Shown here: positions 1 through 64,000 of the stretch, one piece after another
How the letters are laid out: every line of letters begins with the position of its first letter
Numbering within the stretch: position 1 is the first letter of the stretch
Source: Platanthera guangdongensis
Lineage: Eukaryota; Streptophyta; Magnoliopsida; Asparagales; Orchidaceae
Reading direction: 5' to 3'
Assembly (NCBI GenBank): GCA_039583875.1
Contig: CM077165.1
Span: 79,968,757-80,032,756 of the forward strand
DNA length: 64,000 bases
Position numbers and translations under genes: made by a program
The notes under the pieces: generated by a model
Database searches by the model: none
What the model was told of the DNA's origin: nothing
Seen by the model: only the letters and a program-made list of their open reading frames with translations

Positions 1-248
1 ACAACAACAAAAGAAGTTGTGTCGACACCACCAAGGCTAGTGTCGACACTTAGTCCACTTGTGTCGACACTTATTCTATTTTTGTCGACACATAATGAAG
101 ATCAGTCTCGACACTTTCAGACAGAGATAGTGATTTCAAGAAGTGACTGGATGACTTGACAGCCGCCATTTCAATCGGTCTACTGCAACTGTCAAAGATG
201 TCAGAAGGTTGTTAAAAACCGGATCAGCCAGTTACCATGGAGAAAGAC

Positions 249-256
249 TATATAAA
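249..256 (+). promoter_or_regulatory. TATA box of E1 5' LTR
   Basis: TATATAAA lies just after the motif ACCGGATCAGCCAGTT (215-230), an imperfect inverted repeat that recurs in the E6 LTRs. Transcription should start about 30 bp downstream, giving a leader of roughly 870 nt before the primer site. Confidence 0.7.
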
Positions 257-639
257 GGCTTTCTCCTTCAACAGAAAGTGATGATCAATCATTGCAGAAT
301 ACAGATTCTGAGCAATACTGAGAGAAGTAATAATACAGAAGATTTTCGACAGCAGATCTAGAAGAAGTTGGAGAGAGAGAGCTCCATCTAAGAAGAGCAG
401 TTGTTGAACCAGGCTGCCAAGGAAGATTCAGATTGTGATCTGAATCTCAAGTCAAAAGCTGATTGAAGATCATCTTCTCAGAGATTCAACCCTACTGAGT
501 TCAGATTCAAGAAGCTTTGAAGAAAGCTAAGAGAGGTTGATCTCTGCCAAGTTATTCCAAGAACAGTTCAAGAAGTCATCCATCCCTTCTCTTTCTTTCA
601 GGGTGGTGGTCATAAACTTTGTTTAATCAAATTTCTGTA

Positions 640-892
640 AGATCTATTATAGATCTGAGCTGTAAGCCTATATTATAAAGGCTGAGTGTAAGAGATTTAG
701 ATCTCTAAGTGTAGGTCTTGTTGAAGACTGAGGTAGGGCCTTGTGCCTGAGTTGTAGGAGACTGTATTCTCTGAGTGTAGGCCTCGGTGAAGGCTGAGAT
801 AGGGTTGTTTGCCTGAGTTATAGGAGTGGGGACACTCTGAGTTGTAGGAACCTGGTTTGGGTTCTGAGCTACTGTAAGATCTGAGGATCTGA
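640..892 (+). other. Tandem array of about 11 short hairpins in the LTR leader
   Basis: Successive units of about 24 bp read as a linker (TGAG then TGTA or similar) followed by a stem, a short loop and the complementary stem. Examples: AGATCT/AGATCT (640-645 with 651-656), AGCCT/AGGCT, AGAGAT/ATCTCT, GTCTT/AAGAC, GAGA/TCTC, GCCT/AGGC, GAGTG/CACTC, GAACC/GGTTC, AGATC/GATCT. The linker is nearly constant while stem sequences differ, yet each stem pairs with its own partner. The array lies after the TATA box and before the primer site, so it should be in the genomic RNA. E1's 3' LTR and E6's LTRs carry equivalents. Confidence 0.8.
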
Positions 893-930
893 GGAGAAGT
901 GCAGAAGTTAGGCCGAATCTAGTACACTGC

Positions 931-1000
931 TAGATAGGCGAAGGGGGGAAGTGGATGTACCCAGACCTTGGGGAACCACTATAAAAATCTGTGTGCACTC
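931..1000 (+). other. Conserved block near LTR end shared by E1, E2 and E6
   Basis: It holds TAGATAGGCGAAGG, then GTGGATGTACCC, a variable loop, GGGGAACCAC, then TATAAA. GTGG...CCAC and the inner CCC/GGG can pair. Equivalents are at 29538-29605 (E6) and, reverse-complemented, at 12972-13028 (E2). These families otherwise differ, so conservation here suggests a function such as packaging, priming or RNA processing; that is inference. Confidence 0.65.
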
Positions 1001-1158
1001 TGTGTTGAATTATTTTTGTGATTGATGTGTTGTGTAGTAGTAGAATTTGCAAGTTCTGGTTAATTAACTAAATAGAGTTTCTGCCTTAAAAGCAAAAGAA
1101 AAAGTACACATATTCAACCCCCCCCCCCTCTAGGTGGCTAGGCACTAATTCTTTCAAG

Positions 1159-1170
1159 TGCTATCAGAGG
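1159..1170 (+). promoter_or_regulatory. E1 primer-binding site (initiator Met tRNA type)
   Basis: TGCTATCAGAGG differs at two positions from the usual plant Copia site TGGTATCAGAGC and starts three bases after the LTR end. It primes minus-strand DNA synthesis. Confidence 0.8.
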
Positions 1171-1248
1171 CAGGTTTCTCAAAGAAGGACTTAACAGTCA
1201 GAGTGAGATCCTTAAGACAGATTTAATAATCAAGAAAGAATCAAGAAA

Positions 1249-2451
1249 ATGAGTTCAGGTGAAAATCATAAGGAACTAGGTTCAATAAAACTACCCATAT
1301 GCAGAAAGGAGATCTTTGGCATCTGGAAAGAAAGGGTCAGGCTGTTTATGGAGGCTTCTGATCCAAGGATCTATATTACAGTCAAAGAAGGTCCTTATAT
1401 CCCAATGAAGATTTCAATTCTAGATGCTAACCAAAGCATTCCCAAGGATTATTCAGAGATGACCAAGGATGAGATCATCTTGGCAACTATGGATAAGAGG
1501 GCCCATAACATTATAGTAAGTGTCATAGATGATACTACCTTTCAAAATTTGATTCACTGCAGGACTTCAAAGGAAATGTGGGATACTTTGATAGTCTACA
1601 TGGAAGGTTCTGAAGAAGTAAGACAAGATAGAAAATCTATGCTAAACCAGGAGTGTGAGAGTTTCAGACAAGGAAAGTCTGACAGTATCACTGAGTGCTA
1701 CAAAAAGTTTGATAGAATAGTTAATGAGTTGATGTCCTATGGGAGAATCTTCAGTACTTATGAATTGAATGATAAATTCTTAAGATCCTTGACAAAGGAT
1801 TGGGACACTAAGATTTGTGCCATTAGAGAAGTGGCCAAACTTGCAGATATTTCTCCTCCAACCTTGTTTGGAAAGTTGCTGTCATATGAGATGCAACTTA
1901 TGGCTAGGAAAGAGGAAGAGAAGAGTGCAAAAGGTGAGCATAGAGAAAAGTCTGTGGCCTTTAAGGTTGAAGCCCCTAAGAAAAATAGGAGGATGTCTCC
2001 ATCACCTCCTAAGATTGTTGCTGAAACTGCTTCAGAAAATTCAGACAATCAGAATTCAGACAGCAGTGACTCAGATGAGGATTTTGCAGCATTTACTAGA
2101 CAGTTTCAGAGATTTCTGAAGAAGAAGCAGTGGAAGTCTAAGCCTTCCACATCTAAGCCTAAATATGTTTATTATCAAAAGAGGAAGTCATCCAGGAAAG
2201 ACAGGAGCAAGTCTAAGCCAAGCAAGTCTACCACATCAAAGATTGTTTGCTACTATTGTAATAGGCCTGGACATGTAGTGGCTGAATGTCCAGATAAAAG
2301 AAAAGAGTCTGGTGATAAAAAGAAGACTCAACACCAGAGCAAGAAGGAGAAATCCTTTGTTGCTAAGAAGGAGAAGACATTGTCAGATCAGTCATCTTCA
2401 GAGTCAGAATCTGAAGCTGAGGCTTACATTGGTCTGTTTGCTGCAGATTAA
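1249..2451 (+). CDS. gag: E1 Gag, first ORF (capsid region plus CCHC knuckle)
   Basis: A 400-residue ORF starting 78 bp after the primer site. Residues about 15-215 resemble the UBN2/Copia Gag region (KEMWDTL, then ELNDKFLRSLTKDW). A Ser/Asp/Lys-rich linker follows, then a zinc knuckle CYYCNRPGHVVAEC at residues 334-347 (CX2CX4HX4C), which binds nucleic acid. Gag forms the cytoplasmic particle. The ORF stops with TAA at 2449, and the same frame stays open directly afterwards into the second gag ORF, so this stop may be a mutation or a read-through or re-initiation point. This is the best preserved gag of the + strand elements. Confidence 0.9.
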   Translation: MSSGENHKELGSIKLPICRKEIFGIWKERVRLFMEASDPRIYITVKEGPYIPMKISILDANQSIPKDYSEMTKDEIILATMDKRAHNIIVSVIDDTTFQNLIHCRTSKEMWDTLIVYMEGSEEVRQDRKSMLNQECESFRQGKSDSITECYKKFDRIVNELMSYGRIFSTYELNDKFLRSLTKDWDTKICAIREVAKLADISPPTLFGKLLSYEMQLMARKEEEKSAKGEHREKSVAFKVEAPKKNRRMSPSPPKIVAETASENSDNQNSDSSDSDEDFAAFTRQFQRFLKKKQWKSKPSTSKPKYVYYQKRKSSRKDRSKSKPSKSTTSKIVCYYCNRPGHVVAECPDKRKESGDKKKTQHQSKKEKSFVAKKEKTLSDQSSSESESEAEAYIGLFAAD

Positions 2452-6436: not shown

Positions 6437-6945
6437 TTTAATAAAATTGGCTAAGTAAAAAGGTTTTGACACAAGAAGTTGTCTGTGTCGACACATAGAA
6501 GTGGTGTCGACAATACAGAGAAATGATGTCGACACATCTAGAAGTCTGTGTCGATACTTCAGAAAAATAGTGTCGACACATCCAGAGTAGGTGTCGACAC
6601 ATCCAGAAGTGGTGTCGACACTTAGGTTCAATACAGATCTCGTCGAGTAGAGTTTCGACTAATCGTCGAGCGTAGATGTATATATGTTGACACATAAATT
6701 TTGTCGACTATATTAGTGTCAACAAATAGTAGTCAACACCATTGTCGAGACTTAAGTAGTCAGTGTCGACACTTTTCAACAGTGTCGACACATTTAGAGG
6801 ATTTTGATGGGTCTTTTCACCTTCATTTTTAGAAAGGTATAAATAGATCTTCAACATTGTTTGTCGACACGCTTTCAATAGTTTCGAGACCAAAACTTTG
6901 TTTCGACATCTCTCTCATCTAAATTCAATATTTCTCTAAACCCTA
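6437..6945 (+). promoter_or_regulatory. E1 internal promoter region upstream of the third ORF
   Basis: Between the pol stop and the third ORF lie about ten copies of the LTR palindrome GTGTCGACAC or close variants (about 6485-6795 and one near 6866). A TATAAATA box follows at 6838-6845, 108 bp before the ATG. The layout (palindromes, TATA, short pyrimidine-rich leader, ATG) copies the LTR promoter. E6 has the same layout at 59320-59781. Inference: the third ORF is transcribed as its own mRNA. Confidence 0.6.
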
Positions 6946-10012: not shown

Positions 10013-10149
10013 TGTTGGGTACATTGGAAAATGTGTACCAAATTTGAAGAAGCCTCACCCTACTCAATGATATACATCAAGGTGTATTTGATGTGTTTTG
10101 AGTTTATATGTGCAGGTTAAGTAATTGCAGGAAATGCAGAAAAATTTCT

Positions 10150-10890
10150 AAATCCATATGTCGACACCTAGAGAAGCAGTGTCGACACTTATGAAGGCTT
10201 GTGTCGACACTGGAGAAAAGCTGTGTCGACATTTGAAGTAGACTGTGTCGACACTTGGAAGGGCTGTGTCGACACCAGAAGAAGCTGTGTCGACATACAG
10301 AGGCAGTGTCGACACACAGCAAAGCAAAGTCGACATCAACTGTGTCGACACCAAGAGGCAGTGTCGACACACAGGAATACTTAGTCGACATCAAATGTGT
10401 CGACACCAAGAGGCAGTGTCGACACACAGAAGTATTTGTCAACATCAACTGTGTCGACACACAGGACTTGTGTCGACACACAGCAAAGCTTCAAAAAGTT
10501 AAAGTAAAGAAGTACTTGTGTCGACACAAAGGAGATGTGTCGACACTCAGCAAGCTTCAACAAAGTTAAAGTAAAGAAGTACTTGTGTCGACACAAAGGA
10601 GATGTGTCGACACTCAGCAAGTTTCAACAAAGTTAAAGTAAAGAAGTACTTGTGTCGACACAAAGGAGATGTGTCGACACTCAGCAAGTTTCAACAAAAT
10701 TAAAGAAAAGAAGGCTTGTGTCGACACACAGAATCAGTGTCGACACATTCTGAAGAAGCAGTGTTGAGAAGCTGTTACAACAACAAAGAAGTTGTGTCGA
10801 CACCACCAAGGCTAGTGTCGACACTTAGTCCACTTGTGTCGACACTTAGTCTATTTGTGTCGACACATAATGAAGATCAGTCTCGACACT
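10150..10890 (+). repeat. Array of palindrome GTGTCGACAC in E1 U3
   Basis: I count about 23 exact copies plus variants (GTGTCGACAT, AAGTCGACAT), spaced 18-50 bp. Within it, 10497-10690 has three tandem copies of a 66-bp unit, each carrying two palindromes. Arrays of palindromes in U3 are a reported Sirevirus LTR feature; this motif contains the hexamer GTCGAC. They likely act as protein-binding or enhancer sites. Confidence 0.88.
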
Positions 10891-11023
10891 TTCAGACAGA
10901 GACAGTGATTTCAAGAAGTGACTGGATGACTTGACAGCGGCCATTTCAACCGGTCTAATGCAACTGTCAAAGCTATCAGAAGGTTGTTAGAAACCGGATC
11001 AGCCGGTTACCATGGAGAAAGAC

Positions 11024-11031
11024 TATATAAA
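11024..11031 (+). promoter_or_regulatory. TATA box of E1 3' LTR
   Basis: TATATAAA, preceded by ACCGGATCAGCCGGTT (10992-11007), an imperfect inverted repeat also found in the E6 LTRs. Confidence 0.68.
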
Positions 11032-11410
11032 GGCTTTCTCCTTCAATAGAAAGTGATGATCAATCATTACAGAATACAGATTCTGAGCAATACTGAGAGA
11101 AGTAATAATACAGAATATTTTCGACAGAAGATCTAGAAGAAGTTGAAGAGAGAGAGCTCCATCTAAGAAGAGCAGTTGCTGAACCAGGCTGCCAAGGAAG
11201 ATTCAGATTGTGATCTGAATCTCAAGTCAGAAGCTTATTGAAGATCATCTTCTCAAGAGATTCAACCCTACTAAGTTCAGATTCAAGAAGCTTTGAAGAA
11301 AGCTAAGAGAGGTTGATCTCTGCCAAGTTCTTCCAAGAACAGTTCAAGAAGACATCCATCCCTTCTCTTTCTTTCAGGGTGGTGGTCATAAACTTTGTTT
11401 AATCAAATTT

Positions 11411-11670
11411 CTGTAAGATCTATTATAAATCTGAGTTGTAAGCCTATTTTATAAAGGCTGAGTGTAAGAGATTTAGATCTCTGAGTGTAGGTCTTGTTGA
11501 AGACTGAGGTAGGGCCTTGTGCCTGAGTTGTAGGAGACTGTGTTCTCTGAGTGTAGGCCTTGGTGAAGGATGAGGTAGGGCTGTTTGCCTGAGTTGTAGG
11601 AGTGGGGATACTCTGAGTTGTAGGAACCTGGTTTGGGTTCTGAGCTATTGTAAGATCTGAGGATCTGAGG
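11411..11670 (+). other. Hairpin array in E1 3' LTR
   Basis: The same series of about 11 stem-loops as at 640-892. A few stems carry single mismatches (for example the first stem, AGATCT with AAATCT), as expected from ageing after insertion. Confidence 0.78.
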
Positions 11671-11940
11671 AGAAGTGCAGAAGTTAGGCTGAATCTAGTA
11701 CACTGCTAGATAGGCGAAGGGGGAAGTGGATGTACCCAGACCTTGTGGAACCACTATAAAAATCTGTGTGCACTTTGTGTTGAATTATTTCTGTGATTAC
11801 TGTGTTTGCTGTGTTGTGTAGTAGTAGAATTTGCAAGTTCTGGTTAATTAACTAACCATAGTTTCTTCCTTAAGAGCAAAAGAAAAAGTACACATATTCA
11901 CCCCCCCCCCCCTCTAGGTGGCTAGGCACTAATTCTTTCA

Positions 11941-12793
11941 CATGGCTCGCATAAAAATCAGAGAATTGATGGATCATATATTCCTTGGCATTATTAGTAT
12001 GAATAACCCGAATGGGCACACAAAACTTTGTGGATATCTCATTATAAAATATAGTGAACACAGAGAACAGCTTAGAACGATCTTTCAAGAGATACACCGA
12101 AGTGCATCTTAAGAAATCATCAATGAATGTGACAAAGTATAAGCTTCCTCGACCAACAGTAGCAACAGGAGAAGGACCCCAGATGTCAGAGTGAACTAGT
12201 TCAAATGGACGCGAAGAACAACGACCCGATCGTGCTGGGAAAGAAGAGCGACGATGTTTACCCAACTTACATGCTTCATAATTCAAAGGCAAATCATCTG
12301 AAGGAAGGTCTGGAAAAAGTTGATGAATGATGCTAGAAGGAGGATGACCAAGACGACGATGCCACAGCTGAACAGAGGAAGAAGTAGAAAGAGCAATGTC
12401 ATGGTCAAGATAAGAAAGGCCACCACTAGCAGTACTAGTAGCAATCGTAGCCTTATAGACAAAGCCAGAGAAAAAACAAGTGGCACTAGTAAAAGTAACC
12501 GTGTAATTTAACTTAGTGCAAAGAGCATGAACAGAGAGTACATTGCACAGGGAAGTAGTAACATAGAGAGTGTCCTCTAGCAGCAAAGACAAAGAGAGAT
12601 GCATAGTGTCAATATCATGCATTGGAGCAGAAGTCCCATCAGCAATAACAACAATAGACAGCTTGTGTTGTTCAAGCAAAGAGGAAAATAAACGAGAGTT
12701 GTCAGTCATGTGACAATTGTCACCAGAGTCAATAAGCCACTTATCAGAGGAGGACACAAGAGCACGAGTAGTAAAAGAGAGAGGGGAAGCCAT
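11941..12793 (-). pseudogene. pol: E3 pol fragment: protease to integrase core
   Basis: Reading leftward from MASPLSFTTRAL: protease motif WLIDSGDNCHMTD, then the integrase zinc region (WHRRLGHPPSSII, CKLGKHRR), then the core with HSDIWGPSP and its catalytic Asp. The second catalytic Asp appears changed: HTNNAKEY instead of the usual TDN or SDN. The frame ends at FSDFYASH, where E1 is inserted, so the catalytic Glu segment lies on the other side of E1. This family resembles Tork/Ivana-type Copia more than Sireviruses; lineage is uncertain. Confidence 0.85.
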
Positions 12794-13030
12794 CCTCAAG
12801 AAGAAACCAGAAAGCAGAAAGATAAACCACACGGTTAGAAACTGAAAGTCCACCTAGTGTCAGCTATGTGCACCTATGGGGGGGGAATAGGTGACGTGTC
12901 GCGCTTTTGCGGAATTTACGAATGTACCTGCACAATAAAAATAAAAAACACATCACACAGAATACACAGACAATTTATAGTGGTTCCCCGACTTGGGTAC
13001 ATCCACTTTCCCCCTTCGACCTATCTCCCA

Positions 13031-13172
13031 ACAAGGGACGACTCGGTCTCTTATCCAACAGGATTGAAATCCAATCCCTGCACTATCGGAAGGAACCCTT
13101 CCACACGTGAGAGTCAACACTCCCACAAGACGGGTTGCACCCAACCCTTATAGCACGGAACAAACGTTCCTT
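13031..13172 (-). other. Hairpin array in E2 LTR leader
   Basis: Five perfect stem-loops in a row: GGATTG/CAATCC, GGAAGG/CCTTCC, GAGT/ACTC, GGGTT/AACCC, GGAAC/GTTCC, separated by 8-10-bp linkers, plus a weaker GAC/GTC pair at the left. It lies at the same place in the LTR as the E1 and E6 arrays, with quite different stems and linkers. The 5' LTR has the same series at about 20130-20271. Confidence 0.75.
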
Positions 13173-13819
13173 TACAACAAAAGTAAATATAGAATGTACT
13201 CGAGATACAAACTTCGTTTGGAGACTACGGTGTTCCTCTTCGTTCGACGACGTGTTCGTGAAGTCAACGAAGGGTCTACAACCTTGGTCTCTCTTGGAGA
13301 GGATCTCCTCGGAACCGGCGGCGGCAACACGAGCGGCGGCTAGCTTCGGGATCGGCGGCTATGATGATGAGCGGCTGCTGAACTTGGAGATCCAAACTTC
13401 GTAGCGAAGCTAGCTTGGTCTTCCAACGGTCACCGAGGATCAGTCGTCTCGATCGATTCGGACGGGGAAGTTTTTCCCGATCAACAAATCGAGAGACAAG
13501 GGATCTCTGGATAGACGCGTGAGACTCAAGCTTTGCTAAGCTTCTGTCGCCGGAGATCGGGAAGAAAATCGATCAGCAGCGGCGACCAACTTGCCCGAGC
13601 GCGACGGCGGCGGCGGAGAGGAATCGCGATTTTAGGGTTACGTTGCGGCTCGGTTTCTGATTCCCTGTCCCTGCTTTACTGTTCAAAGTACCCGAATATA
13701 TATACTGTAGATAACTCCAATATGACCGTTTGTGGGACCCACAATAGAAATCCCTAAATCCGGTTCAAACTAGTCCAGCGGCAGAATCCGGTCCAGCAGC
13801 ATCCCGAGAAATTGCTAAG

Positions 13820-19941: not shown

Positions 19942-21589
19942 TGAAAGTCCACCTAGTGTCAGCTATGTGCACCTATGGGGGGGGAATAGGTGACGTGTCG
20001 CGCTTTTGCAGAATTCACGAATGTACCTGCACAATAAAAATAAAAAGCACAGCACACAGAATACACAGACAATTTATAGTGGTTCCCCGACTTGGGTACA
20101 TCCACTTTCCCCCTTCGACCTATCTCCCAACAAGGGACGACTCGGTCTCTTCTCCAACAGGATTGAAATCCAATCCCTGCACTATCGGAAGGAACCCTTC
20201 CACACGTGAGAGTCAACACTCCCACAAGACGGGTTGCACCCAACCCTTACAACACGGAACAAACGTTCCTTTACAACAAAAGTAAATATAGAATGTACTC
20301 GAGATACAAACTTCGTTTGGAGACTACGGTGTTCCTCTTCGTTCGACGACGTGTTCGTGAAGTCAACGAAGGGTCTACAACCTTGGTCTCTCTTGGAGAG
20401 GATCTCCCCGGAACCGGCGGCGGCAACACGAGCGGCGGCTAGCTTCGGGATCGGCGGCTATGATGATGAGCGGCTGCTAAACTTGGAGATCCAAACTTCG
20501 TAGCGAAGCTAGCTTGGTCTTCCAACGGTCACACAAGGATCGGTCGTCTCGATCGATTCGGACGGGGAAGTTTTTCCCGATCAACAAATCGAGAGACAAG
20601 GGATCTCTGGATAGACGCGTGAGACTCAAGCTTTGCTAAGCTTCTGTCGCCGGAGATCGGGAAGAAAATCGATCAGCAGCGGCGACCAACTTGCCCGAGC
20701 GCGACGGCGACGGCGGAGAGGAATCGCGATTTTAGGGTTATGTTGCGGCTCGGTTTCTAATTCCCTGTCCCTGCTTTACTGTTCAAAGTACCCGAATATA
20801 TATACTGTAGATAACTCCAATATGACCGTTTGTGGGACCCACAATAGAAATCCCTAAATCCGGTTCAAACTAGTCCAGCGGCAGAATCGGGTCCAGCAGC
20901 ATCCCGAGAAATTGCTAAGTGAAAATCGGCGAGAATCGCAGGTGATTCTCGACGAATCGGCGAGAATCACCAAGTGATTCTCGACGATTCGTCGAGAATC
21001 GCTAGTGATTCTCGCCGAATCACTTATTGATTCTCAGCGATTTTCACTTGGTATTCATGAGCTGCTTAACCACTGGTTCGGCGAGAATCACTAGTGATTC
21101 TCGCCGAATCTTACTTGGCACCGTTTTGAGGTAGCCAGAAGGGGTCGGCGAGAAGGGTCGTCGGCGAGAATCACTAATGATTCTCGTCGATTCGGCGAGA
21201 ATCACTAGTGATTCTCGCCGAATTGGCGAGAATCACTTGGTGATTCTCGTCGAATTTTCCTTGGACGAATTTTCGTCTTCCACCCAGGAGCTGCTCCTTG
21301 ACCCATCCATGCTCCTTGTCTTCTCTTGCATATGAACGGCCCTGTACTTGAAAGTAAGTGCACTCCAATAGAGAGAGTACACGTAGGCCAACACACTGAT
21401 CTGCTCAACGAGGGATTACGTCTTGCAGACCCGTGTATATTGACCTACTGCACCCTGACATTGGTGTGCACTTAGCGTGGAGGAGTTGCAAGTACAACTT
21501 AAGATGTTTCATCAAATACATTGTGAATTCATCTTAGCTTGACAGGTGGCTTCCTCAAATCCAGGTAATTGTGGATACAATACCCAACA
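19942..21589 (-). repeat. E2 5' LTR (1,648 bp)
   Basis: Near-identical direct copy of 12843-14473, with the same termini, palindromes (20925-21262), hairpins and conserved block. A TATATATA run at about 20796-20804 could be the TATA box on the minus strand. Confidence 0.93.
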
Positions 21590-28690: not shown

Positions 28691-29192
28691 AAGTTCCAAC
28701 ACTTAAAGCAGAGTTGTTTCCTAAGTGCAGAAATCAAGCTAGAGGATCTGATAATTATAATAACTATCAGATGTCAGTAATTAACCGAATCAGCCGGTTA
28801 CCTTTGACAGAGCCTGTATAATGGGATCAACTCTATGGAAACAATGCGTGAAAAAGTGGAAAGTGAACAGATCATAGAAAAAAGAAGTAGAATAAGAAGA
28901 AGATCAAGGAGCTTTCAATTCAAAATCTCTTCCCAGATCTAAAAGTAAACTGCTAGAATTCAGAAGGTGGAGAGAAGCTAGATTAAGAATCGACATCAAC
29001 ATTCTTCAGCCTAGATCTACCCTAATTTCATCTTCAAGAAGCTTTGAAAAACAAAAGAAGGGTTGGATCAAATCCATTACAATAAGGATCAAAGGAAGCT
29101 GATTTATCAATGTCAGTTCAAGAAGCAGTCACCCATTTCTCTCTTTCTGGGTGACTAATTCAAAATTTATTTTGTTTCACCATTATAAATCT

Positions 29193-29503
29193 TGTAAGAT
29201 CTAATTGTAGATCTGAGTGTAGAAAAGTCAATTTCTCTGAGTTGTAAGGTTGTGTTATAAAGGCTGAGGTAAGGCTGAGTGCCTGAGGTAAGAGAAGTGG
29301 GTATTTCTCTAAGTTGTAGGAACTGATTGTTCTTAGAAGTATGGCAGGAGTTGCTTGAGGAGTAGGAGTGTGGATTCACTCTGAGGTAGAGTTCTTTGAA
29401 AGAACTTGAGGTGTAGGATCTTGGTGATCTGAGTGGTAAGTCTTGAAAAGACTGAGTTATAGGAGCCAGCTGGACTCTGAGCTGCAAGATCTGAGGATCT
29501 GAG
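29193..29503 (+). other. Hairpin array in E6 5' LTR
   Basis: Twelve or so units with TGAG...GTA linkers. Clear stems: AGATCT/AGATCT, AGAAA/TTTCT, AGGC/GCCT, AGAGAAA-type/TTTCTCT, GAGTG/CACTC, AGTTCT/AGAACT, GATC/GATC, AGTCTT/AAGACT, AGATC/GATCT. Several stems differ from those at the same rank in E1, while pairing is kept. Confidence 0.78.
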
Positions 29504-29800
29504 TAAAGAAAGAAGGAGTTTGGCCGAATCTAGTTAATTGCTAGATAGGCGAAGGCGGAAAGTGGATGTACCCATAAATTGGCGAACCACTATAAATCTG
29601 TGTGTACTGTGTTGTGATTGCTATGTTGTGATTGTTTTAAATTACTGAATAGTTTTTCTTGTTATATCTGACTGGGGTAATAAACATAAAAAAGTAAATT
29701 TTAGAATATAAAAATTAGCCAAGATTTAAATTGTACCTATTCACCCCCACCCCCCACCCCCCTCTAGGTCACTCTCAATTCTAAAACAAAAATTTACGAT

Positions 29801-29811
29801 TGGTATCAGAG
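29801..29811 (+). promoter_or_regulatory. E6 primer-binding site (Met tRNA)
   Basis: TGGTATCAGAG, followed by G where C is usual. Confidence 0.9.
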
Positions 29812-29876
29812 GGAGGTTTACTGAGAGGGCATAACAGCCTAGTGAGAATCCAAAGGATTGCAGAGAAAGATAAATC

Positions 29877-40976: not shown

Positions 40977-42269
40977 TGTTGAAGCCAAATTTGACCTCTG
41001 TGGAGTTCGGGGTCCCAAAATAGGGGTGACCGCGCACCTACTACCCTCAAGCGAACGATCTAGGCACAAGATTAGGAACACAAGGGACAGACCCAAGGTC
41101 TCAGCGTGGAGGACCCACCGCATACCCGGAAGACTAACAAACTCTTCCCCTCCCAAGCCAAAGGCTGAGCTAAGACACCTTCGGAGGGCGCTCTTGGCCG
41201 ACCGGAACATCTAAGGAGGATCTCAAGAACAACTCTCTCCTATCCAGATGTGTCTCCTTGGGTCTACACAAAAATGCTCCTCACCCGCCCTACTGATGGC
41301 GCAAACTCGCCGAGCAATGCCACGACACGCTGCCCAAACTGGGCCACTAACAACGTAATTCCGCTATTCTGACTGGCTGTCAACAGGCCATGAGGGGCTT
41401 CCCGGCAACTATACCTCGGGGCCCCTACGGGGCGAGCGGTTCTCGAGAACACCGCCTGCCTAATAAAAAGAAGAAACCTACACATCCTCAGAGCATCACA
41501 GATATTAAAAGAATATTACAGGAATATGAATTTCATACTTCGGCACGCAGTCCGGCATATAAATAAAAAAGGCCTTCGAGGGCCGGCACAAGCTTGGGCT
41601 TAAGCCCGCTACTCCCCGCCTGGTACTGCAACACCTGTACGTCAACGTCTCGACAAGCGGCGGTCAGCTAAACGCCAGTTGGTCAACATAAGCTGGCCGA
41701 ACATATTGCGTGTACCCCTTTTTCGGGGCTATGGTGCGCATTCCCTGCAAATGGAAAATATACAACATCCTCGGAGTCTTCTCCGGGATCCCCAGAACAT
41801 CACCAATCCGGCTCACACGTCCGGATGGGCTTCACACAGCATGCCTAAACCCGTACTCTCGCTTCCGGGTGCTAACACAGTTAATTGCGGGGACGTACAC
41901 GTCAACCCGTCGGAGAGCTCCCTTCCTCCACCCGTTGGTGGAGAGGGGCTTCCATGCAAATATGGAAATTGAGGGCTTCACCTGCCTAAGTAGAAATTTC
42001 GTTACCCTTGACGCGTGTTTGGCGGGGCCGCAACCGCGCTCATGGCCCGAGGCTCCACGTCTAGCATCCGTAGTGGTTGTCCGTGCCCGGATCCGACCAC
42101 CGTGGGAGAGTTTAAAGCTCCGAATGATTTTTTCCCTCCATGGTCGAGCCTCTCCAAGGCCGACCGTGCTCCACGTGACACCGAGGAAGTCAATCCCGGC
42201 CTCCACGACTTCAGGCGGCGTCGGGGAAGCTGATCCCGATTGGCCTAGCTCCAAACGGCGCCGGGAGAG

Positions 42270-42450
42270 GAGCTCCCGGTCGACCTAGCTGTAGGCGGCG
42301 CCGGGAGAGGAGCTCCCGGCCGGCCTCGCTTTAGGCGGCGCCGGGGGAGGAGCTCCCGGCCGGCCTCGCTTTAGGCGGCGCCGGGAGAGGAGCTCCCGGC
42401 CGTCCTCGCTGTAGGCGGCGCCGGGAGAGGAGCTCCCGGCCGGCCTTGCT
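42270..42450. repeat. 40-bp tandem repeat with hairpin GCCGGGAG/CTCCCGGC
   Basis: About five units. Each has a stem CCGGGAG, a four-base loop and CTCCCGG, followed by GGCCGGCC in most. The right LTR has the same array at about 48410-48501 and 49284-49375, split by E7. Confidence 0.8.
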
Positions 42451-42514
42451 TTGCCCTAGGCGGTGGCGACGAAGAGAGAACAAAGAGAGAGAGAGAGAGC
42501 CGAGGTGGGGTGCT

Positions 42515-42950
42515 GCTCCGGGCGGCCGGAGAAAGAAGAGAAATGGGGCGGGGTGTTGCTGCTCCTCGCGGCCGGAGAAAGAAAAGAAATGGGGCGGGGT
42601 GGTGCTGCTCCTCGCGGCCGGAGAAAGAAAAGAAACGGGGCGGGGTGGTGCTGCTCCTCGCGGCCGGAGAAAGAAAGGGCCGAGGCAGGGTGTTTCTGCT
42701 CCTCGCGGCCGGAGAAAGAAAAGAAACGGGGCGGGGTGGTGCTGCTCCTCACGGCCGGAGAAAGAAAGGGCCGAGGCGGGGTGTTGCTGCTCCTCGCGGC
42801 CGGAGAAAGAAAGGGCCGAGGCGGGGTGTTGCTGCTCCTCGCGGCCGGAGAAAGAAAGGGCCGAGGCGGGGTGTTGCTGCTCCTCGCGGCCGGAGAAAGA
42901 AAAGAAACGGGGCGGGGTGGTGCTGCTCCTCGCGGCCGAAGAAAGAGAAG
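42515..42950. repeat. 45/48-bp tandem repeat in E4 left LTR
   Basis: About nine or ten units containing GCGGCCGGAGAAAGAAA and GGGGCGGGGTG, of two length types (45 and 48 bp). Right LTR copy: about 49440-49870. Unit lengths divisible by three keep several frames open on both strands, so the long ORFs here are by-products. Confidence 0.82.
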
Positions 42951-43423
42951 AGGGGGCGGCTTGCTGCTGTAGACGGCCGGAGGGAGAGGAAGAGGGGGGC
43001 GGGCGGCCTGCTCCTGGCCGAAAGGGAGAGAGAGAGAGAGAGGCGGTGCTGCTTCTCCTCTAGCCGACGAGAGAGAGAGAGAGGGCGGGGTGGGGTTCTT
43101 CTGCTCTAGCCGATGAGAGAGGGAGAGACTGGCGGCCGGATTCCGCTCCAGGCCCAACCCTAGCCAGGAAATCCCGCTCCACCTCCTGCTTCCCTCCCCC
43201 TTTTTTTATTTCCTTCTTTTTTATTTCTCTGCCTCGCCCGTACCCGAGCCCACCCCCCAGCCTCCCTCTTCTCTCCTTTTTTTATTTGCCTCTTTTCTTC
43301 TTTTTCCTGCTGTACCCCCCTATCATGAGCCCACATGCTATTTTAATTGCTTCCCATGCTTTTTCCTGTACCGCCCATCCATCCCCCTCCTCTTTCTTTC
43401 TTCATCCCTCATGCATATATAAT

Positions 43424-43542
<119 letters not shown>

Positions 43543-43725
43543 TATTTAATATATACATAAATATATATATATATATATGTTTAAAGTCTATATAAATAGA
43601 ACCTCTGCACGCACGCACGAGGACCCGCACGAGCTCGAACGAGGCTGCACCAAAACGTCGCTCATAACATGTCCCGAGCGCGTCACTTGGGGAGGATCCC
43701 ACTCGGCCGGATATGGGGTTGTACA

Positions 43726-44098
43726 CAATCCCCGCTCTTTTCGAGGTTGGCACAAGCTCGGAAAGAAATGTCCAACCCCAAGTATCCGGCGAGTGGGAGC
43801 CGACCCAAAGAAAAATTTTGGGAGAAACTGAAAATTGCACTTATGCAGTTATGCCCACTAATCTTTTCATGCCCCTTCTGATCTTGTTGAACCACTCGAT
43901 ACATTTTTTTTTCTCACTGCTATTGGATTGCTCTTATACCTTTACTTACCATAACTGTTGAAGCCAAATATTTTGCAATCTCTTGAGCACGCGGAGCTAA
44001 TCCTTTCCCCCCAGGTGTGTCTACCGCCCTGCCCAGCTAATGAGAGCCTGAGCAGCGAGTCTACCCAGGACCGAGCAGTACTCGGGGTCCCTTACCCC
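43726..44098. other. E4 interior, left unique part
   Basis: No gene. At 43950-43972 the sequence ACCATAACTGTTGAAGCCAAAT repeats the last bases before the right LTR plus that LTR's first 14 bases (47113-47134), as if a second LTR start were embedded here. Confidence 0.55.
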
Positions 44099-46028
44099 CA
44101 CAGGAGAGCCTACGGACCTGCCGGCTAGATGAGAGCCTGCGCAGCGGGTCTACCTGGGGCCGAGCCGAGCTCGGGGTGTCGATGACGATCTCAAACCAAA
44201 CCTATCCCCCACAAGCGAGCCTACGGACCTGCCAGCTAGATGAGAGCCTGCGCAGCGGGTCTACCTGGGGCCGAGCCGAGCTCGGGGTGCCGATGACGAT
44301 CTCAAACCAAAACCTATCCCCCACAGGCGAACCTACGGACCTGCCAGCTAGATGAGAGCCTGCGCAGCGGGTCTACCTGGGGCCGAGCCGAGCTCGGGGT
44401 GCCGATGACGATCTCAAACCAAACCTATCCCCCACAGGCGAGCCTACGGACCTGCCAGCTAGATGAGAGCCTGCGCAGCGGGTCTACCTGGGGCCGAGCC
44501 GAGCTCGGGGTGCCGATGACGATCTCAAACCAAAACCTATCCCCCATAGGCGAGCCTACGGACCTGCCAGCTAGATGAGAGCCTGCGCAGCGGGTCTACC
44601 TGGGGCCGAGCCGAGCTCGGGGTGCGATGATGATCTCAAACCAAAACCTATCCCCCACAGGCGAGCCTACGGACCTGTCAGCTAGATGAGAGCCTGCGCA
44701 GCGGGTCTTCCTGGGGTCGAGCCGAGCTCGGGGTGCCGATGACGATCTCAAACCAAAACCTATCCCCCACAGGCGAACCTACGGACCTGCCAGCTAGATG
44801 AGAGCCTGCGCAGCGGGTCTACCTGGGGCCGAGCCGAGCTCGGGGTGCCGATGACGATCTCAAACCAAACCTATCCCCCACAGGCGAGCCTACGGACCTG
44901 CCAGCTAGATGAGAGCCTGCGCAGCGGGTCTTCCTGGGGCCGAGCCGAGCTCGGGGTGCCGATGACGATCTCAAACCAAAACCTATCCCCCACAGGCGAG
45001 CCTACGGACCTGCCAGCTAGATGAGAGCCTGCGCAGCGGGTCTACCTGGGGCCGAGCCGAGCTCGGGGTGCCGATGACGATCTCAAACCAAAACCTATCC
45101 CCCACAGGCGAGCCTACGGACCTGCCAGCTAGATGAGAGCCTGCGCAGCGGGTCTACCTGGGGCCGAGCCGAGCTCGGGGTGCCGATGACGATTCCACAA
45201 ACCTAACCTAACCTATCTTAACCTATCCTAACCTATCACGCACAAACCAAACCTATCCCCCACAGGCGAGCCTACGGACCTGCCAGCTAGATGAGAGCCT
45301 GCGCAGCGGGTCTTCCTGGGGCCGAGCCAAGCTCGGGGTGCCAATGAAGATCTCAAACCAAAACCTATCCCCCACAGGCGAGCCTACGGACCTGCCAGCT
45401 AGATGAGAGCCTGCGCAGCGGGTCTACCTGGGGCCGAGCCGAGCTCGGGGTGCCGATGACGATCTCAAACCAAAACCTATCCCCCACAGGCGAGCCTACG
45501 GACCTGCCAGCTAGATGAGAGCCTGCGCAGCGGGTCTACCTGGGGCCGAGCCGAGCTCGGGGTGCCGATGACGATTCCACAAACCTAACCTAACCTATCT
45601 TAACCTTTCCTAACCTATCACGCACAAACCAAACCTATCCCCCACAGGCGAGCCTACGGACCTGCCAGCTAGATGAGAGCCTGCGCAGCGGGTCTTCCTG
45701 GGGCCGAGCCGAGCTCGGGGTGCCGATGACGATCTCAAACCAAAACCTATCCCCCACAGACGAGCCTACGGACCTGCCAGCTAGATGAGAGCCTGCGCAG
45801 TGGGTCTACCTGGGGCCGAGCCGAGCTCGGGGTGCCGATGACGATCTCAAACCAAAACCTATCCCCCACAGGCGAGCCTACGGACCTGCCAGCTAGATGA
45901 GAGCCTGCGCAGCGGGTCTACCTGGGGCCGAGCCGAGCTCGGGGTGCCGATGACGATTCCATAAACCTAACCTAACCTATCTTAACCTATCCTAACCTAT
46001 CACGCACAAACCAAACCTATCCCCCACA
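44099..46028. repeat. Minisatellite array A, 111-112-bp units with higher-order pattern
   Basis: Sixteen units beginning GCGAGCCTACGGACCTGCC. The first seven are 111 or 112 bp. From 44883 on they form three 382-bp higher-order units of 112+112+158 bp (44883-45264, 45265-45646, 45647-46028). The 158-bp unit has a 46-bp insert with repeats of AACCTAACCTATC. Confidence 0.9.
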
Positions 46029-46860
46029 GGCGAGCCTACGGACCTGCCAGCTAGTAGGAGCCAGGCAGCGGGTCTACCTGGGGCCGAGCCGCGCTCGGGG
46101 TAGTGCAGAACTAAGAACCAGGACCTCTCCCCCACAGGCGAGCCTACGGACCTGCCAGCTAGTAGGAGCCAGGCAGCGGGTCTACCTGGGGCCGAGCCGC
46201 GCTCGGGGTAGTGCAGAACCAAGAACCCGGACCTCTCCCCCACAGGCGAGCCTACGGACCTGCCAGCTAGTAGGAGCCAGGCAGTGGGTCTACCTGGGGC
46301 CGAGCCGCGCTCGGGGTAGTGCAGAACCAAGAACCAGGACCTCTCCCCCACAGGCGAGCCTACGGACCTGCCAGCTAGTAGGAGCCAGGCAGCGGGTCTA
46401 CCTGGGGCCGAGCCGCGCTCGGGGTAGTGCAGAACCAAGAACCAGGACCTCTCCCCCACAGGCGAGCCTACGGAACTGCCAGCTAGTAGGAGCCAGGCAG
46501 CGGGTCTACCTAGGGCCGAGCCGCGCTCGGGGTAGTGCAGAACCAAGAACCAGGACCTCTCCCCCACAGGCGAGCCTACGGACCTGCCAGCTAGTAGGAG
46601 CCAGGCAGCGGGTCTACCTGGGGCCGAGCCGCGCTCGGGGTAGTGCAGAACCAAGAACCAGGACCTCTCCCCCACAGGCGAGCCTACGGACCTGCCAGCT
46701 AGTAGGAGCCAGGCAGCGGGTCTACCTGGGGCCGAGCCGCGCTCGGGGTAGTGCAGAACCAAGAACCAGGACCTCTCCCCCACAGGCGAGCCTACGGACC
46801 TGCCAGCTAGTAGGAGCCAGGCAGCGGGTCTACCTGGGGCCGAGCCGCGCTCGGGGTAGC
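46029..46860. repeat. Minisatellite array B, eight 108-bp units
   Basis: Starts at 46029, 46137, 46245, 46353, 46461, 46569, 46677 and 46785. Units share their first half with array A; the second half (GTAGTGCAGAACCAAGAACC) differs. 108 is divisible by three, so the minus strand is open across all eight copies (45992-46873) and would encode a 36-residue repeat. I do not regard it as a gene. Confidence 0.9.
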
Positions 46861-47120
46861 TCTCCCCGGTCAATCTCTACCCACTACGGGGCACATCTAC
46901 CCGCTACATCCACCCTCCTGAGAACGAGGGTCGATCATATAATATTCTCCCTAAGGTACGTTTTGATCTCCAGGATCGAACATCCTACCGACAAAAGGGA
47001 AATGGGAGGGGACTTCTTTCATCACATGACCCTGGTCGTCACTTGGTTCCTATTCTATATCCACGACGTTCGACTGAGTTTTTCTGTACTGGTCACTCTC
47101 CATGCTCACCGCACCATAAC
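46861..47120. other. E4 interior, right unique part
   Basis: Non-coding and not repeated. No primer-site or purine-tract signal is clear next to the LTR at 47121. Confidence 0.5.
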
Positions 47121-48518
47121 TGTTGAAGCCAAATTTGACCTCTGTGGAGTTCGGGGTCCCAAAATAGGGGTGACCGCGCACCTACTACCCTCAAGCGAAC
47201 GATCTAGGCACAAGATTAGGAACACAAGGGACAGACCCAAGGTCTCAGCGTGGAGGACCCACCGCATACCCGAAAGACTAACAAACTCTTCCCCTCCCAA
47301 GCCAAAGGCTGAGCTAAGACACCTTCGGAGGGCGCTCTTGGCCGACCGGAACATCTAAGGAGGATCTCAAGAACAACTCTCTCCTATCCAGATGTGTCTC
47401 CTTGGGTCTACACAAAAATGCTCCTCACCCGCCCTACTGATGGCGCAAACTCGTCGAGCAATGCCACGACACGCTGCCCAAACTGGGCCACTAACAACGT
47501 AATTCCGCTATTCTGACTGGCTGTCAACAGGCCATGAGGGGCTTCCCGGCAACTATACCTCGGGGCCCCTACGGGGCGAGCGGTTCTCGAGAACACCGCC
47601 TGCCTAATAAAAAGAAGAAACCTACACATCCTCAGAGCATCACAGATATTAAAAGAATATTACAGGAATATGAATTCCATACTTCGGCACGCAGGCCGGC
47701 ATATAAATAAAAAAGGCCTTCGAGGGCCGGCACAAGCTTGGGCTTAAGCCCGCTACTCCCCGCCTGGTACTGCAACACCTGTACGTCAACGTCTCGACAA
47801 GCGGCGGTCAGCTAAACGCCAGTTGGTCAACATAAGCTGGCCGAACATATTGCGTGTACCCCTTTTTCGGGGCTATGGTGCGCATTCCCTGCAAATGGAA
47901 AATATACAACATCCTCGGAGTCTTCTCCGGGATCCCCAGAACATCACCAATCCGGCTCACACGTCCGGATGGGCTTCACACAGCATGCCTAAACCCGTAC
48001 TCTCGCTTCCGGGTGCTAACACAGTTAATTGCGGGGACGTACACGTCAACCCGTCGGAGAGCTCCCTTCCTCCACCCGTTGGTGGAGAGGGGCTTCCATG
48101 CAAATATGGAAATTGAGGGCTTCACCTGCCCAAGTAGAAATTTCGTTACCCTTGACGCGTGTTTGGCGGGGCCGCAACCGCGCTCATGGCCCGAGGCTCC
48201 ACGTCTAGCATCCGTAGTGGTTGTCCGTGCCCGGATCCGACCACCGTGGGAGAGTTTAAAGCTCCGAATGATTTTTTCCCTCCATGGTCGAGCCTCTCCA
48301 AGGCCGACCGTGCTCCACGTGACACCGAGGAAGTCAATCCCGGCCTCCACGACTTCAGGCGGCGTCGGGGAAGCTGATCCCGATTGGCCTAGCTCCAAAC
48401 GGCGCCGGGAGAGGAGCTCCCGGTCGACCTAGCTGTAGGCGGCGCCGGGAGAGGAGCTCCCGGCCGGCCTCGCTTTAGGCGGTGCCGGGGGAGGAGCTCC
48501 CTGTAACAACCCCATCCG

Positions 48519-48585
48519 GTTAAGCGTGCTCGGGCTGGAGTAGTACTGGGATGGGTGACCTCCTGGGAAGTCCCCGTAGTGCGGG
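48519..48585 (+). other. 5S rRNA-like segment, copy A
   Basis: GTTAAGCGTGCTCGGGC then AGTAGTACTGGGATGGGTGACC and CTCCTGGGAAGTCC match the 3' half of plant 5S rRNA, with its internal Pol III control region (A-box and C-box). The 5' half is absent. It is part of E7, not a functional rRNA gene. Confidence 0.88.
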
Positions 48586-48914
48586 CTTGACTATCGAGTT
48601 TACCTCATCAAAGGGAGGCTGCGGCCACCAACAACCCGCCTGTGGATGGAGAGGGGTTGGGGTGCTTGGGCTGCAGCCCGGTAGGGTCGCCTAGAGCGGA
48701 GCCGTGACGCTGTCACGTTGGATCGGCTAGGGGCCTTACAATAAAAAGTGCACTTTTTATTGTAACGTCCCTAGCCGATCCAACGTGACAGCGTCACGGC
48801 TCCGCTCTAGGCGACGCTACCGGGCTGCAGCCCAAGCACCCCAACCCCTCTCCCTCCACAGGCGGGTTGTTGGTGGCCACAGCCTCCCTTTGATGAGGTA
48901 AACTCGATAGTCAA

Positions 48915-48991
48915 GCCCGCACTACGGGGACTTCCCAGGAGGTCACCCATCCCAGTACTACTCCAGCCCGAGCACGCTTAACTATGGAGTT
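48915..48991 (-). other. 5S rRNA-like segment, copy B
   Basis: Reverse-complement copy within E7, slightly longer than A, including the preceding AGAACTCC, which is also 5S-like. Confidence 0.88.
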
Positions 48992-49046
48992 CTTTCAACT
49001 CTCATCACCAATTGAGCTGCAGCTCAATTGGTGATGAGAGTTGAAA

Positions 49047-49124
49047 GAACTCCATAGTTAAGCGTGCTCGGGCTGGAGTAGTACTGGGATGGGTGACCTC
49101 CTGGGAAGTCCCCGTAGTGCGGGC
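49047..49124 (+). other. 5S rRNA-like segment, copy C
   Basis: + strand copy mirroring B. Just upstream, AGCTCAATTGGTGATGAG resembles a tRNA A-box region; no B-box follows. Confidence 0.85.
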
Positions 49125-50344
49125 TTGACTATCGAGTTTACCTCATCAAAGGGAGGCTGTGGCCACCAACAACCCGCCTGTGGAGGGAGAGGGGTTGGGG
49201 TGCTTGGGCTGCAGCCCGGTAGCGTCGCCTAGAGCGGAGCCGTGACGCTGTCACGTTGGATCGGCTAGGGACGTTACACTCCCGGCCGGCCTCGCTTTAG
49301 GCGGCGCCGGGAGAGGAGCTCCCGGCCGTCCTCGCTGTAGGCGGCGCCGGGAGAGGAGCTCCCGGCCGGCCTTGCTTTGCCCTAGGCGGTGGCGACGAAG
49401 AGAGAACAGAGAGAGAGAGAGCCGAGGTGGGGTGCTGCTCCGGGCGGCCGGAGAAAGAAGAGAAACGGGGCGGGGTGTTGCTGCTCCTCGCGGCCGGAGA
49501 AAGAAAAGAAACGGGGCGGGGTGGTGCTGCTCCTCGCGGCCGGAGAAAGAAAAGAAACGGGGCGGGGTGGTGCTGCTCCTCGCGGCCGGAGAAAGAAAGG
49601 GCCGAGGCGGGGTGTTGCTGCTCCTCGCGGCCGGAGAAAGAAAAGAAACGGGGCGGGGTGGTGCTGCTCCTCGCGGCCGGAGAAAGAAAGGGCCGAGGCG
49701 GGGTGTTGCTGCTCCTCGCGGTCGGAGAAAGAAAGGGCCGAGGCGGGGTGTTGCTGCTCCTCGCGGCCGGAGAAAGAAAGGGCCGAGGCGGGGTGTTGCT
49801 GCTCCTCGCGGCCGGAGAAAGAAAAGAAACGGGGCGGGGTGGTGCTGCTCCTCGCGGCCGGAGAAAGAGAAGAGGGGGCGGCTTGCTGCTGTAGACGGCC
49901 GGAGGGAGAGGAAGAGGGGGGCGGGCGGCCTGCTCCTGGCCGAAAGAGAGAGAGAGAGAGAGGGGCGGTGCTGCTTCTCCTCTAGCCGACGAGAGAGAGA
50001 GAGAGGGCGGGGCGGGGTTCTTCTGCTCTAGCCGATGAGAGAGGGAGAGACTGGCGGCCGGATTCCGCTCCAGGCCCAACCCTAGCCAGGAAATCCCGCT
50101 CCACCTCCTGCTTCCCTCCCCCTTTTTTTATTTCCTTCTTTTTTATTTCTCTGCCTCGCCCGTACCCGAGCCCACCCCCCAGCCTCCCTCTTCTTTCCTT
50201 TTTTTATTTGCCTCTTTTCTTCTTTTTCCTGCTGTACCCCCCTATCATGAGCCCACATGCTATTTTAATTGCTTCCCATGCTTTTTCCTGTACCGCCCAT
50301 CCATCCCCCTCCTCTTTCTTTCTTCATCCCTCATGCATATATAA

Positions 50345-50409
<65 letters not shown>

Positions 50410-50593
50410 ATTTAATATATACATAAATATATATATATATATATATGTTTAAAGTCTATATAAATAGAACCTCTGCACGCACGCACGAGGACCCGCACGA
50501 GCTCGAACGAGGCTGCACCAAAACGTCGCTCATAACATGTCCCGAGCGCGTCACTTGGGGAGGATCCCACTCGGCCGGATATGGGGTTGTACA

Positions 50594-62856: not shown

Positions 62857-64000
62857 TATTGGGTACATTGGTCACAATGTACTTGATTTAAAGAAGTCCT
62901 TTCAGTTCAATGATATACAAATAGTTGTATTTGATGAATGTTAAGTTCTTATGTGTAGGCAAATAAAGCTAAGTACAAAAGTGTCGAGACACTAGGCAAG
63001 TGTCGACACCTTTGTCAAAGATGTGCTGAGACAATAAGTAGTTGTGTCGACACTCAGAACTAGTGTCGACACACTTAAACAAGAAGTGTTGAGTCAAGGA
63101 GAAAGTTGTGTCAACACCTAGGACTTAGGTCGACACTATGATAAAAGAAAGAAACTGTGTCGACACTCAAGACTAGTGTCGACACATACTACATCAGCTA
63201 CGGCGAGACAAGGTGAAGGCTATGTCGACACATTCAGAAGTATATCGACATCACTACAAGAGTAGTGTCGACACCCGGGACAGGTGTTGACACATCCGAC
63301 AGTAAAGTTCCAACACTTCAAGCAGAGTTATTTCCTAAGTGCAGAAATCAAGCAAGAGGATCTAACAACTGTCAGAACTTTCAGATGTCAGTAATTAATC
63401 GGATCAGTCAGTTACCTTTGACAGAGTCTATATAAAGGGATCAACTCTATAGAAATAGTGTGTGAAAAAGTGAAAAAGTGAGCAGATCACAGAAAAAGAA
63501 GCAGAATAAGAAGAAGATCAAGGAGCTTTCAATTCAAAATCTCTTCCCAGATATAAAAGTAAACAACTAGAATTTAGAAGGTGGAGAGAAGCCAGATCAA
63601 GAATCGACTTCAACATTCTCCAACCTAGATCTACCCTAATTTGATCTTCAAGAATCTTTGAAAAGCAAAGAAGGGTTGGATCAAATCCATTATAATAAGG
63701 ATCAAGGGAAGCTGACTTATCAAGATCAGCTCAAGAAGCAGTCACCCGTTTCTCTCTTGCTGGGTGACTAATTCAGAATTTATTTCTTTTCACCATTATA
63801 AATCTTATAAGATCTAATTGTAGATCTGAGGGTAGGAGAATCAATTTCTCTGAGTTGTAAGCATGTGTTATAAAGGCTGAGGTAAGGCTGAGTGTCAGAG
63901 GTAGGAGAAGTGGGTATTTCTCTGAGTTATGGGAACTGATTGCTCTGAGTTGTAGGGCAGAAGTTGTCGGAGGAGTATGAGTGTGGATTCACTCTGAGGT
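62857..64000 (+). repeat. E6 3' LTR, first 1,144 bp (cut by window end)
   Basis: It starts TATTGGGTACATTGG (second base changed from G). Palindrome array 62980-63300, intact TATATAAA at 63429-63436, hairpin array from 63807. It diverges from 28243-29788 by scattered substitutions, far more than E1 or E2 LTR pairs, so E6 is older. Confidence 0.9.
63807..64000 (+). other. Hairpin array in E6 3' LTR (incomplete)
   Basis: AGATCT/AGATCT, GAGAA-type/TTCTC, AGC/GCT, AGAGAAG-type/TTCTCT and GAGTG/CACTC stems with TGAG...GTA linkers, matching 29193-29400. Confidence 0.72.

Follow-up and report, generated by a model that had tools for sequence, protein, structure and literature searches.

The window analysed here is a 64,000-nucleotide stretch of the orchid Platanthera guangdongensis (C19:79968757-80032756 of a 4.25-Gb genome). 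At its left end lies a Sirevirus-type Ty1/copia element, E1, whose 5′ LTR is cut by the window start and ends at about position 1156. The gag ORF on the forward strand (1249..2451) gave Pfam matches to Retrotran_gag_2 (5.7e-18) and to one zf-CCHC domain (1.5e-05); an earlier, sequence-only reading of the locus had assumed a two-knuckle Gag, which has to be corrected, as Pfam gives a single CCHC zinc knuckle. The pol ORF carries the integrase before the reverse transcriptase (rve 42-138 and RVT_2 411-572 in one ORF, Pfam). A copia-type Gag containing CCHC and this order of domains mark E1 as Sirevirus-type (Ty1/copia). The 3′ LTR was found at 10013-11941; where the window includes the 5′ LTR, the two share 95.2% identity.

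Three marks of Sireviruses are given in the part of PMC2829016 drawn on here: palindromic boxes that precede the TATA box, a run of C close to where the LTR ends, and a primer site of the form TATCAGAG. In the 5′ LTR of E1 the TATA box lies at 249..256 on the forward strand, and a stretch poor in AUG starts about 32 nt below it. Upstream, at 18..117 (forward strand) and separate from the hairpin array described below, there are GTGTCGACAC-like palindromic boxes with a TCGA core in place of CGG-CCG; Tnd-1 is likewise described as being without the CGG-CCG core (Bousios et al., 2010, PMC2829016). A run of C at 1118..1128 (forward strand) is close to the LTR end, as expected of the Sirevirus integrase signal (Bousios et al., 2010), and the core of the primer-binding site, TATCAGAG, follows at 1162..1169 (forward strand). 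Compared with the Sirevirus sequence TATCAGAGC, E1 reads TATCAGAGG (8 of 9 positions match), while E3, a third element in the window, has TATCAGAGC itself. Long arrays of TGTCGACA palindromic boxes were also seen at 10159-10866, in the U3 of E1, and at 6484-6621, upstream of ORFs without a Pfam match; they resemble those reported for env-bearing Sireviruses. At 42256-50446 a GC-rich block in two copies (40-/46-bp tandem repeats and an AT run) surrounds 108-112-bp tandem arrays at 44095-46859.

The hairpin array and its relatives

The hairpin array occupies 636..893 of the forward strand in the 5′ LTR of E1, where a row of about 11 mini-hairpins had been noticed at 640..892. The observation was confirmed and is wider than described. 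We counted 11 units, beginning with a core at 640-656 and closing with the core AGATCTGAGGATCT, and the same array is present in the 3′ LTR (11412..11669, forward strand). The units are 19-27 nt long, with stems of 4-7 bp and loops of 3-9 nt, and follow one plan: a GAG..GTA linker, a closing R.U pair, a near-invariant G-C pair, variable inner pairs and the loop. The linker consists of GAG (or AAG), usually 0-2 and at most 5 further nucleotides, and GTA or ATA; when all arrays were pooled, the most frequent linkers were GAGGTA, GAGTGTA, GAGTTGTA and GAGCTGTA. A reading of the linkers as decoy splice donors (e.g., GAG|GTAAG in E2) was considered and set aside; many linkers have bases between GAG and GTA. 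No common loop motif was seen across units.

When each E1 unit was folded singly, a linker-flanked hairpin was obtained for 10 of the 11, unit 7 taking a different register. Single units of E1 and E2 had energies between -0.9 and -7.8 kcal/mol, and those of E3 between -5.2 and -12.0. All six stem pairs cited in the sequence-only reading were recovered. Its statement that nearly every stem differs from its neighbours needs correcting in that not all stems are distinct: AGATC(T) arms occur in both the first and the last unit, and a diverged duplication seems to relate units 4-6 to units 7-9. This tandem duplication covers approximately these units (702..848, forward strand, period 66 bp) and, by eye, shows compensating stem differences between its two parts.

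Two further elements in the window carry such arrays. The second, divergent element E2, whose 5′ LTR starts at 28243, has 13 units at 29192..29503 (forward strand); its first and last stems resemble those of E1, while the stems between them differ. An E2-type 3′ LTR starting at about 62859 contains a damaged array at 63806..64000 (forward strand), which is cut by the window end and continues in the stretch L029. The two E2-type LTR starts have the same orientation and are about 34.6 kb apart (28243-64000), with other repeats, perhaps nested insertions, between them. E3 has six hairpins on the reverse strand at 20128..20279, with borders set by eye and another kind of linker (e.g., GTG-TTGTAA), and the same array in its other LTR (13029..13180, reverse strand).

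We also surveyed 20 arbitrary 10-kb stretches taken at round-number positions of the genome. Arrays of the same plan with other stems were found in six of them (L034, L038, L040, L045, L047, and L049); two clusters returned by the unit scan in L033 were set aside because they look like AT-rich false positives. Across the linker-parsed arrays the number of units varied from 5 to 23. The longest rows were in L040 (7093-7614, reverse strand, 23 linker-parsed units) and L045 (7965-8445, 21 linker-parsed units), which are 92% alike over aligned columns. These two represent one family with many perfect 6-7 bp stems and are perhaps the best material for RNA probing. Protein and pattern scans of viral_contigs and genome_contigs gave no relatives, and the only Rfam match in window positions 1-1300 was an antisense one at 1092-1131 (E 0.41, 19.3 bits, compared with a gathering score of 50).

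Below the array of E1 lies a conserved element, GTGGATGTACCC..GAACCACTATAAA (951..985, forward strand), which is common to E1, E2, and E3. It matched five times in the window and not once in shuffled sequence, the further copies being at 11726-11760 and 29562-29596 and, on the reverse strand, at 20105-20073 and 13006-12974. In 11 of 12 arrays it was located 24-90 nt below the array; in L047 it was not found. Its sequence is conserved among families whose LTRs align only piecewise. Three stretches of the genome (L037, L039, and L050) contain a similar element with no such array in the 260 nt above it, and the array is therefore not universal. By eye, the element could form a GTGG/CCAC hairpin. 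It also carries one of the few AUGs of the leader, which opens a 9-codon frame in E1, L034, and L049 and other frames in E2, E3, and L038.

Pairing within the stems

In the arm-swap test the units of an array were halved, the right halves were permuted among the units, and the summed fold energy was compared with that of the native order. None of 100,000 permutations of the E1 array reached the native energy (native -59.0; permuted mean -26.6, lowest -55.9), whereas 2932 of 20,000 did so for a control, the leader stretch 281-540 cut to the same lengths. For E2 the result was again 0 of 100,000. For E3 none of 100,000 permutations was lower and 137 were equal, about the frequency at which the native order alone should turn up among 720 possible orders. 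The nine linker-parsed arrays all gave low counts, from 0 to 191 of 20,000.

Folding against shuffled controls, a check suggested with the first observation, had a mixed outcome. The E1 array, tested in its 3′ copy, was not more stable than dinucleotide shuffles (four windows, z +0.6 to -1.0); windows over the E2 array passed in part (z -0.1 to -3.3), and the two main windows of E3 passed (z -4.3 and -3.9). As the E1 3′ copy was non-significant, energy relative to shuffles was dropped as a proof of structure, while the arm-swap and cross-family checks succeeded. The minimum free energy structure of the whole array differs from a simple row of hairpins, since unconstrained folding prefers longer-range pairings. 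In the seven arrays examined, unit stems had a mean probability of only 0.27-0.48 when pairs of any span were allowed, with three to nine units per array above 0.5; when pairs were limited to 30 nt it was 0.49-0.81. Because the energy of the E1 array (3′ copy) is not unusual and long-range folds are preferred, our claim rests on comparison and not on energy.

Individual pair positions were counted in a parse based on the linkers only. It covered nine arrays, among them E2_3 and L045, and yielded 110 units with none dropped; E3, with its borders set by eye, was left out. This parse superseded an earlier one of 103 units, 84 of which had passed a pairing filter. Because it chained just seven units in E2_3 and misplaced some borders (e.g., that of E1 unit 9), the pairing counts come out too low. 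The closing position was G.U in 78 units, A-U in 20 and G-C in four, and the second pair was G-C in 97 of 110. The third pair was Watson-Crick in 97 of 110 units (A-T 41, G-C 21, T-A 19, C-G 16), compared with a mean of 37.5 and a maximum of 53 in 5000 within-array swaps; for the fourth pair, with all four types present, the count was 99 of 110 (mean 36.4, maximum 57 in 5000 swaps). Excluding E2_3, L045, and repeated cores left 68 of 76 and 69 of 76 units paired at these two positions, against 25.8 and 26.4 in swaps. A comparison of G.U with A.C at pairs 3-6 as a strand test gave 42 vs. 9 (Fisher p 0.011 against swaps, the units being non-independent). The excess came mainly from pair 6 (27 vs. 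1); pairs 3-5 contributed 15 vs. 8, and mismatches between flanking pairs 5 vs. 4. With its signal mostly at pair 6, the strand test is weak, and we did not retain it.

Copies of E1 were compared in 29 rows, the two window LTRs and 27 copies from the best 40 places of one search, which makes them a close set. The commonest base at each site gave standard pairs, G.U included, at 60 of 60 pairs. Private changes per site amounted to 0.0083 in stems, 0.0125 in loops and 0.0050 in linkers, and 21 of the 29 private stem changes broke a pair. Stem variants shared between copies were of five types: pairing is preserved in three of them (15 copies) and disrupted in the other two (5 copies). The consensus thus pairs while most private stem changes break pairs, and pairing is accordingly kept in the replicating lineage but not after insertion.

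Covariation across family members, which the sequence-only reading had named as a check, was absent from the 29 E1 rows, which are too alike, and whose changes are too largely private, to be informative; across families it was present to a modest degree. The cross-family comparison used the seven of the eleven E1 helices that aligned, with the pairs drawn, in five arrays. Six two-sided pair changes were found, a number reached by 5 of 500 shuffles and by none of the versions in which the alignment was slid (0-3). Cells were paired in 92.2% of cases, vs. 89.8% in shuffles (1 of 500), and additional pair types were not raised in this set (12 vs. 13.3). The claim that pairing and linker are conserved while the stem sequence is free was supported, and pairing holds across families with different stems. 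To judge from these comparisons, the ability to pair, and not the letters of the stem, seems to be what evolution keeps.

Perfect palindromes might also be maintained without any selection on structure. Template switching within hairpins is known as quasi-palindrome correction; if reverse transcriptase switched templates inside the hairpins it would keep the palindromes perfect, and the row would grow by tandem duplication. Such duplication is visible in the 66-bp period of E1 and in two identical neighbouring units in L034, and a single switching step would give two-sided changes. The kept linkers and the fixed place of the array, below the TATA box and above the 951-985 element, are left unexplained in this way, and so are the predominance of G.U and A-U at the closing position and the one-sided G.U intermediates, so that we regard this origin as quite improbable.

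Position of the array in the presumed leader

AUG is strongly depleted between the TATA box and gag. The E1 leader (282-1248) contains two AUGs vs. 20.9 expected, with one more at 281; in the E3 leader (20775-19869, reverse strand) we found one vs. 14.1, and in the E2 leader (28851-29876), where the TATA box is damaged and two further AUGs lie within 16 bases above the start of the count, four vs. 22.7. Controls were near expectation, both in the U3 regions of the same LTRs (14 vs. 18.4, 9 vs. 12.5, and 10 vs. 11.1) and in E1 gag (24 vs. 24.8). The leaders were short of CAT as well, but to a smaller extent than of ATG (7 vs. 13.6 in E1, and 8 vs. 13.5 and 10 vs. 14.7 in the others).

From the TATA box through the array there were seven AUGs vs. 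76.9 expected in 12 arrays, LTR pairs included. Between the TATA match and the array, eight loci together had one vs. about 51.5 expected; placing the E1 match two bases further up adds one. The TATA match preceded the array by 369-397 nt in E1, the E2 3′ LTR, L034, L038, L040, L047, and L049, and by 516 nt in E3; some loci have extra TATA-like matches, which were not used, and no fitting match was found in the E2 5′ LTR or L045. Such a pattern would be expected if transcription began close to the TATA box and ribosomes scanned through the array, and it bears on the refuting condition set with the first observation, a transcript start downstream of the array. The AUG shortage over leaders of about 900-1000 nt offers a way to place the transcript starts of silent elements from sequence. 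The array had been described as a leader feature, downstream of the TATA box and upstream of the primer site. The sequence layout fits this, with the TATA box at 249-256, the AUG shortage reaching to gag and TATCAGAG at 1162-1169.

The same shortage across the whole leader suggests that scanning matters, and the array might then act in translation: a long, AUG-poor and modestly folded leader could slow, store or shunt ribosomes, or bind a host translation factor via its UGUA linkers. The weak folding energies of single units would suit such a role. A leader lacking structure could achieve this more simply, and the free number of units fits a binding platform at least as well; we consider a role in translation unlikely.

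In ten arrays TGTA occurred 78 times vs. about 24 expected, and its complement TACA 0 times, a bias that any explanation of the linker must meet. UGUA is the site bound by CFIm25 according to the part of PMC7457121 consulted, and repeated UGUAs, gathered by the hairpins, could enhance 3′-end processing if the 3′ LTR had a poly(A) site downstream of them, close to TATAAA. A TATAAA does end the 951-985 element, although it is not kept in L037, L039, and L050. For Sire, Benachenhou et al. (in the part of PMC3601003 consulted), working by comparison with Tnt1 and on Sireviruses other than these, place the poly(A) site close to the TATA box, with an R of about 10 bp. An R of this length would leave the array outside the 3′ end of the RNA, and we judge an enhancer of 3′-end processing to be quite improbable.

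Possible function and known systems

Repeated inverted repeats in the same LTR of the same kind of element are known from the Sirevirus RM boxes (Bousios et al., 2010, in the part of PMC2829016 used here), and similar boxes (GTGTCGACAC) precede the TATA box of E1 itself and recur in tandem near 6485-6621. As that source presents them, RM boxes repeat a single palindrome in any one element, are located either before the TATA box or close to env, and are interpreted as cis-elements of the DNA, whereas the E1 array lies downstream of the TATA box, has changing stems and fixed linkers, and differs from what defines an RM box. By analogy with the palindromic boxes upstream of TATA in maize and other Sireviruses, the array could be a regulatory or chromatin feature at the DNA level, or give rise to small RNAs; the parts of PMC5311732 and PMC10760457 consulted do report that small RNAs are attracted to LTR regions rich in palindromes in maize Sireviruses. 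Against this, the known boxes have one sequence per element and another position, a free stem sequence would hardly be tolerable to a DNA-binding protein, and the stems are far shorter than the stretches of at least 21 nt called miRNA-like in one of these sources. We regard a DNA-level or small-RNA role as remote.

Structured leaders are known from other retroelements. In the part of PMC5454406 drawn on here, the TIPIRT domain at the 5′ end of the RNA of Ty1, another Ty1/copia element, is described as carrying signals for translation initiation, packaging and reverse transcription, and in this it is like the array. It differs in being built from a pseudoknot in the first 326 nt and two kissing hairpins, with no serial row of free stems.

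Retroviral packaging signals have short hairpins in a row upstream of gag, with unpaired guanosines for nucleocapsid. Their hairpins are few and each has an individual identity, in contrast to the 5-23 equivalent linker-parsed units found here. The location of a packaging signal (psi) in the leader upstream of gag is fitted by the layout and the AUG shortage, as far as sequence alone can tell.

In the parts of the Sirevirus literature consulted (PMC2829016, PMC5311732, PMC10760457, and PMC3601003), palindromes upstream of the TATA box or a hairpin at the polypurine tract are described; in the text of PMC2829016 the words 'hairpin' and 'stem-loop' occur 0 times, and the stem loop it names surrounds the polypurine tract. 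Among the matches listed in searches for Sirevirus palindromes and hairpins, leader hairpins and packaging, and tandem hairpins, titles and the beginnings of abstracts gave no published description of such an array. We think it quite conceivable, almost an even call, that the array represents a class of retroelement RNA not described before: equivalent hairpins, 5 to 23 or more of them, strung serially like 'beads-on-a-string', selected for pairing and not for stem sequence, and together forming a multivalent platform to which Gag or a host protein binds.

In the sequence-only reading, Gag binding and packaging, dimerisation, translation control and masking from silencing had been named as candidate roles. 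Equal units in free number, with fixed linkers and free but paired stems, are what a multivalent binding platform would look like. We tentatively propose, as a possibility somewhat short of probable, that the array is an RNA-level device in the Sirevirus-type 5′ leader, offering multivalent sites mainly to the element's own Gag in packaging. The array would be transcribed and would stay in the RNA scanned by ribosomes towards gag, as the TATA box about 370-400 nt upstream and the AUG shortage suggest. The small hairpins may act as spacers that fold during RNA synthesis and keep the purine/U linkers single-stranded, and the RNA would thereby present a large number of equivalent binding sites at regular intervals. 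Their ligand would most likely be the element's own Gag, with its one CCHC knuckle, which might load cooperatively and mark the RNA for packaging. Being individually weak, the hairpins could be melted by scanning ribosomes, and one leader would thus serve both messenger and genome. Gag is favoured because the part of the leader that holds the array precedes both the primer site and gag. The case for Gag is one of analogy, and its docking for packaging is our best guess; the tests made would be compatible with another protein as partner of the linker.

How the RNA of plant LTR retrotransposons is marked for packaging is, as far as we know, a subject on which there is little information, and the words 'plant retrotransposon' did not occur among the matches listed in a search on packaging. 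The array is a concrete, testable candidate for a packaging signal, and a common one, present in 6 of 20 arbitrary 10-kb stretches of a 4.25-Gb genome. It is also a clean case of pairing kept with free sequence, in which the inserted copies provide a neutral control. If the proposal is true, a very abundant lineage of plant retrotransposons would carry a multivalent platform in its leader.
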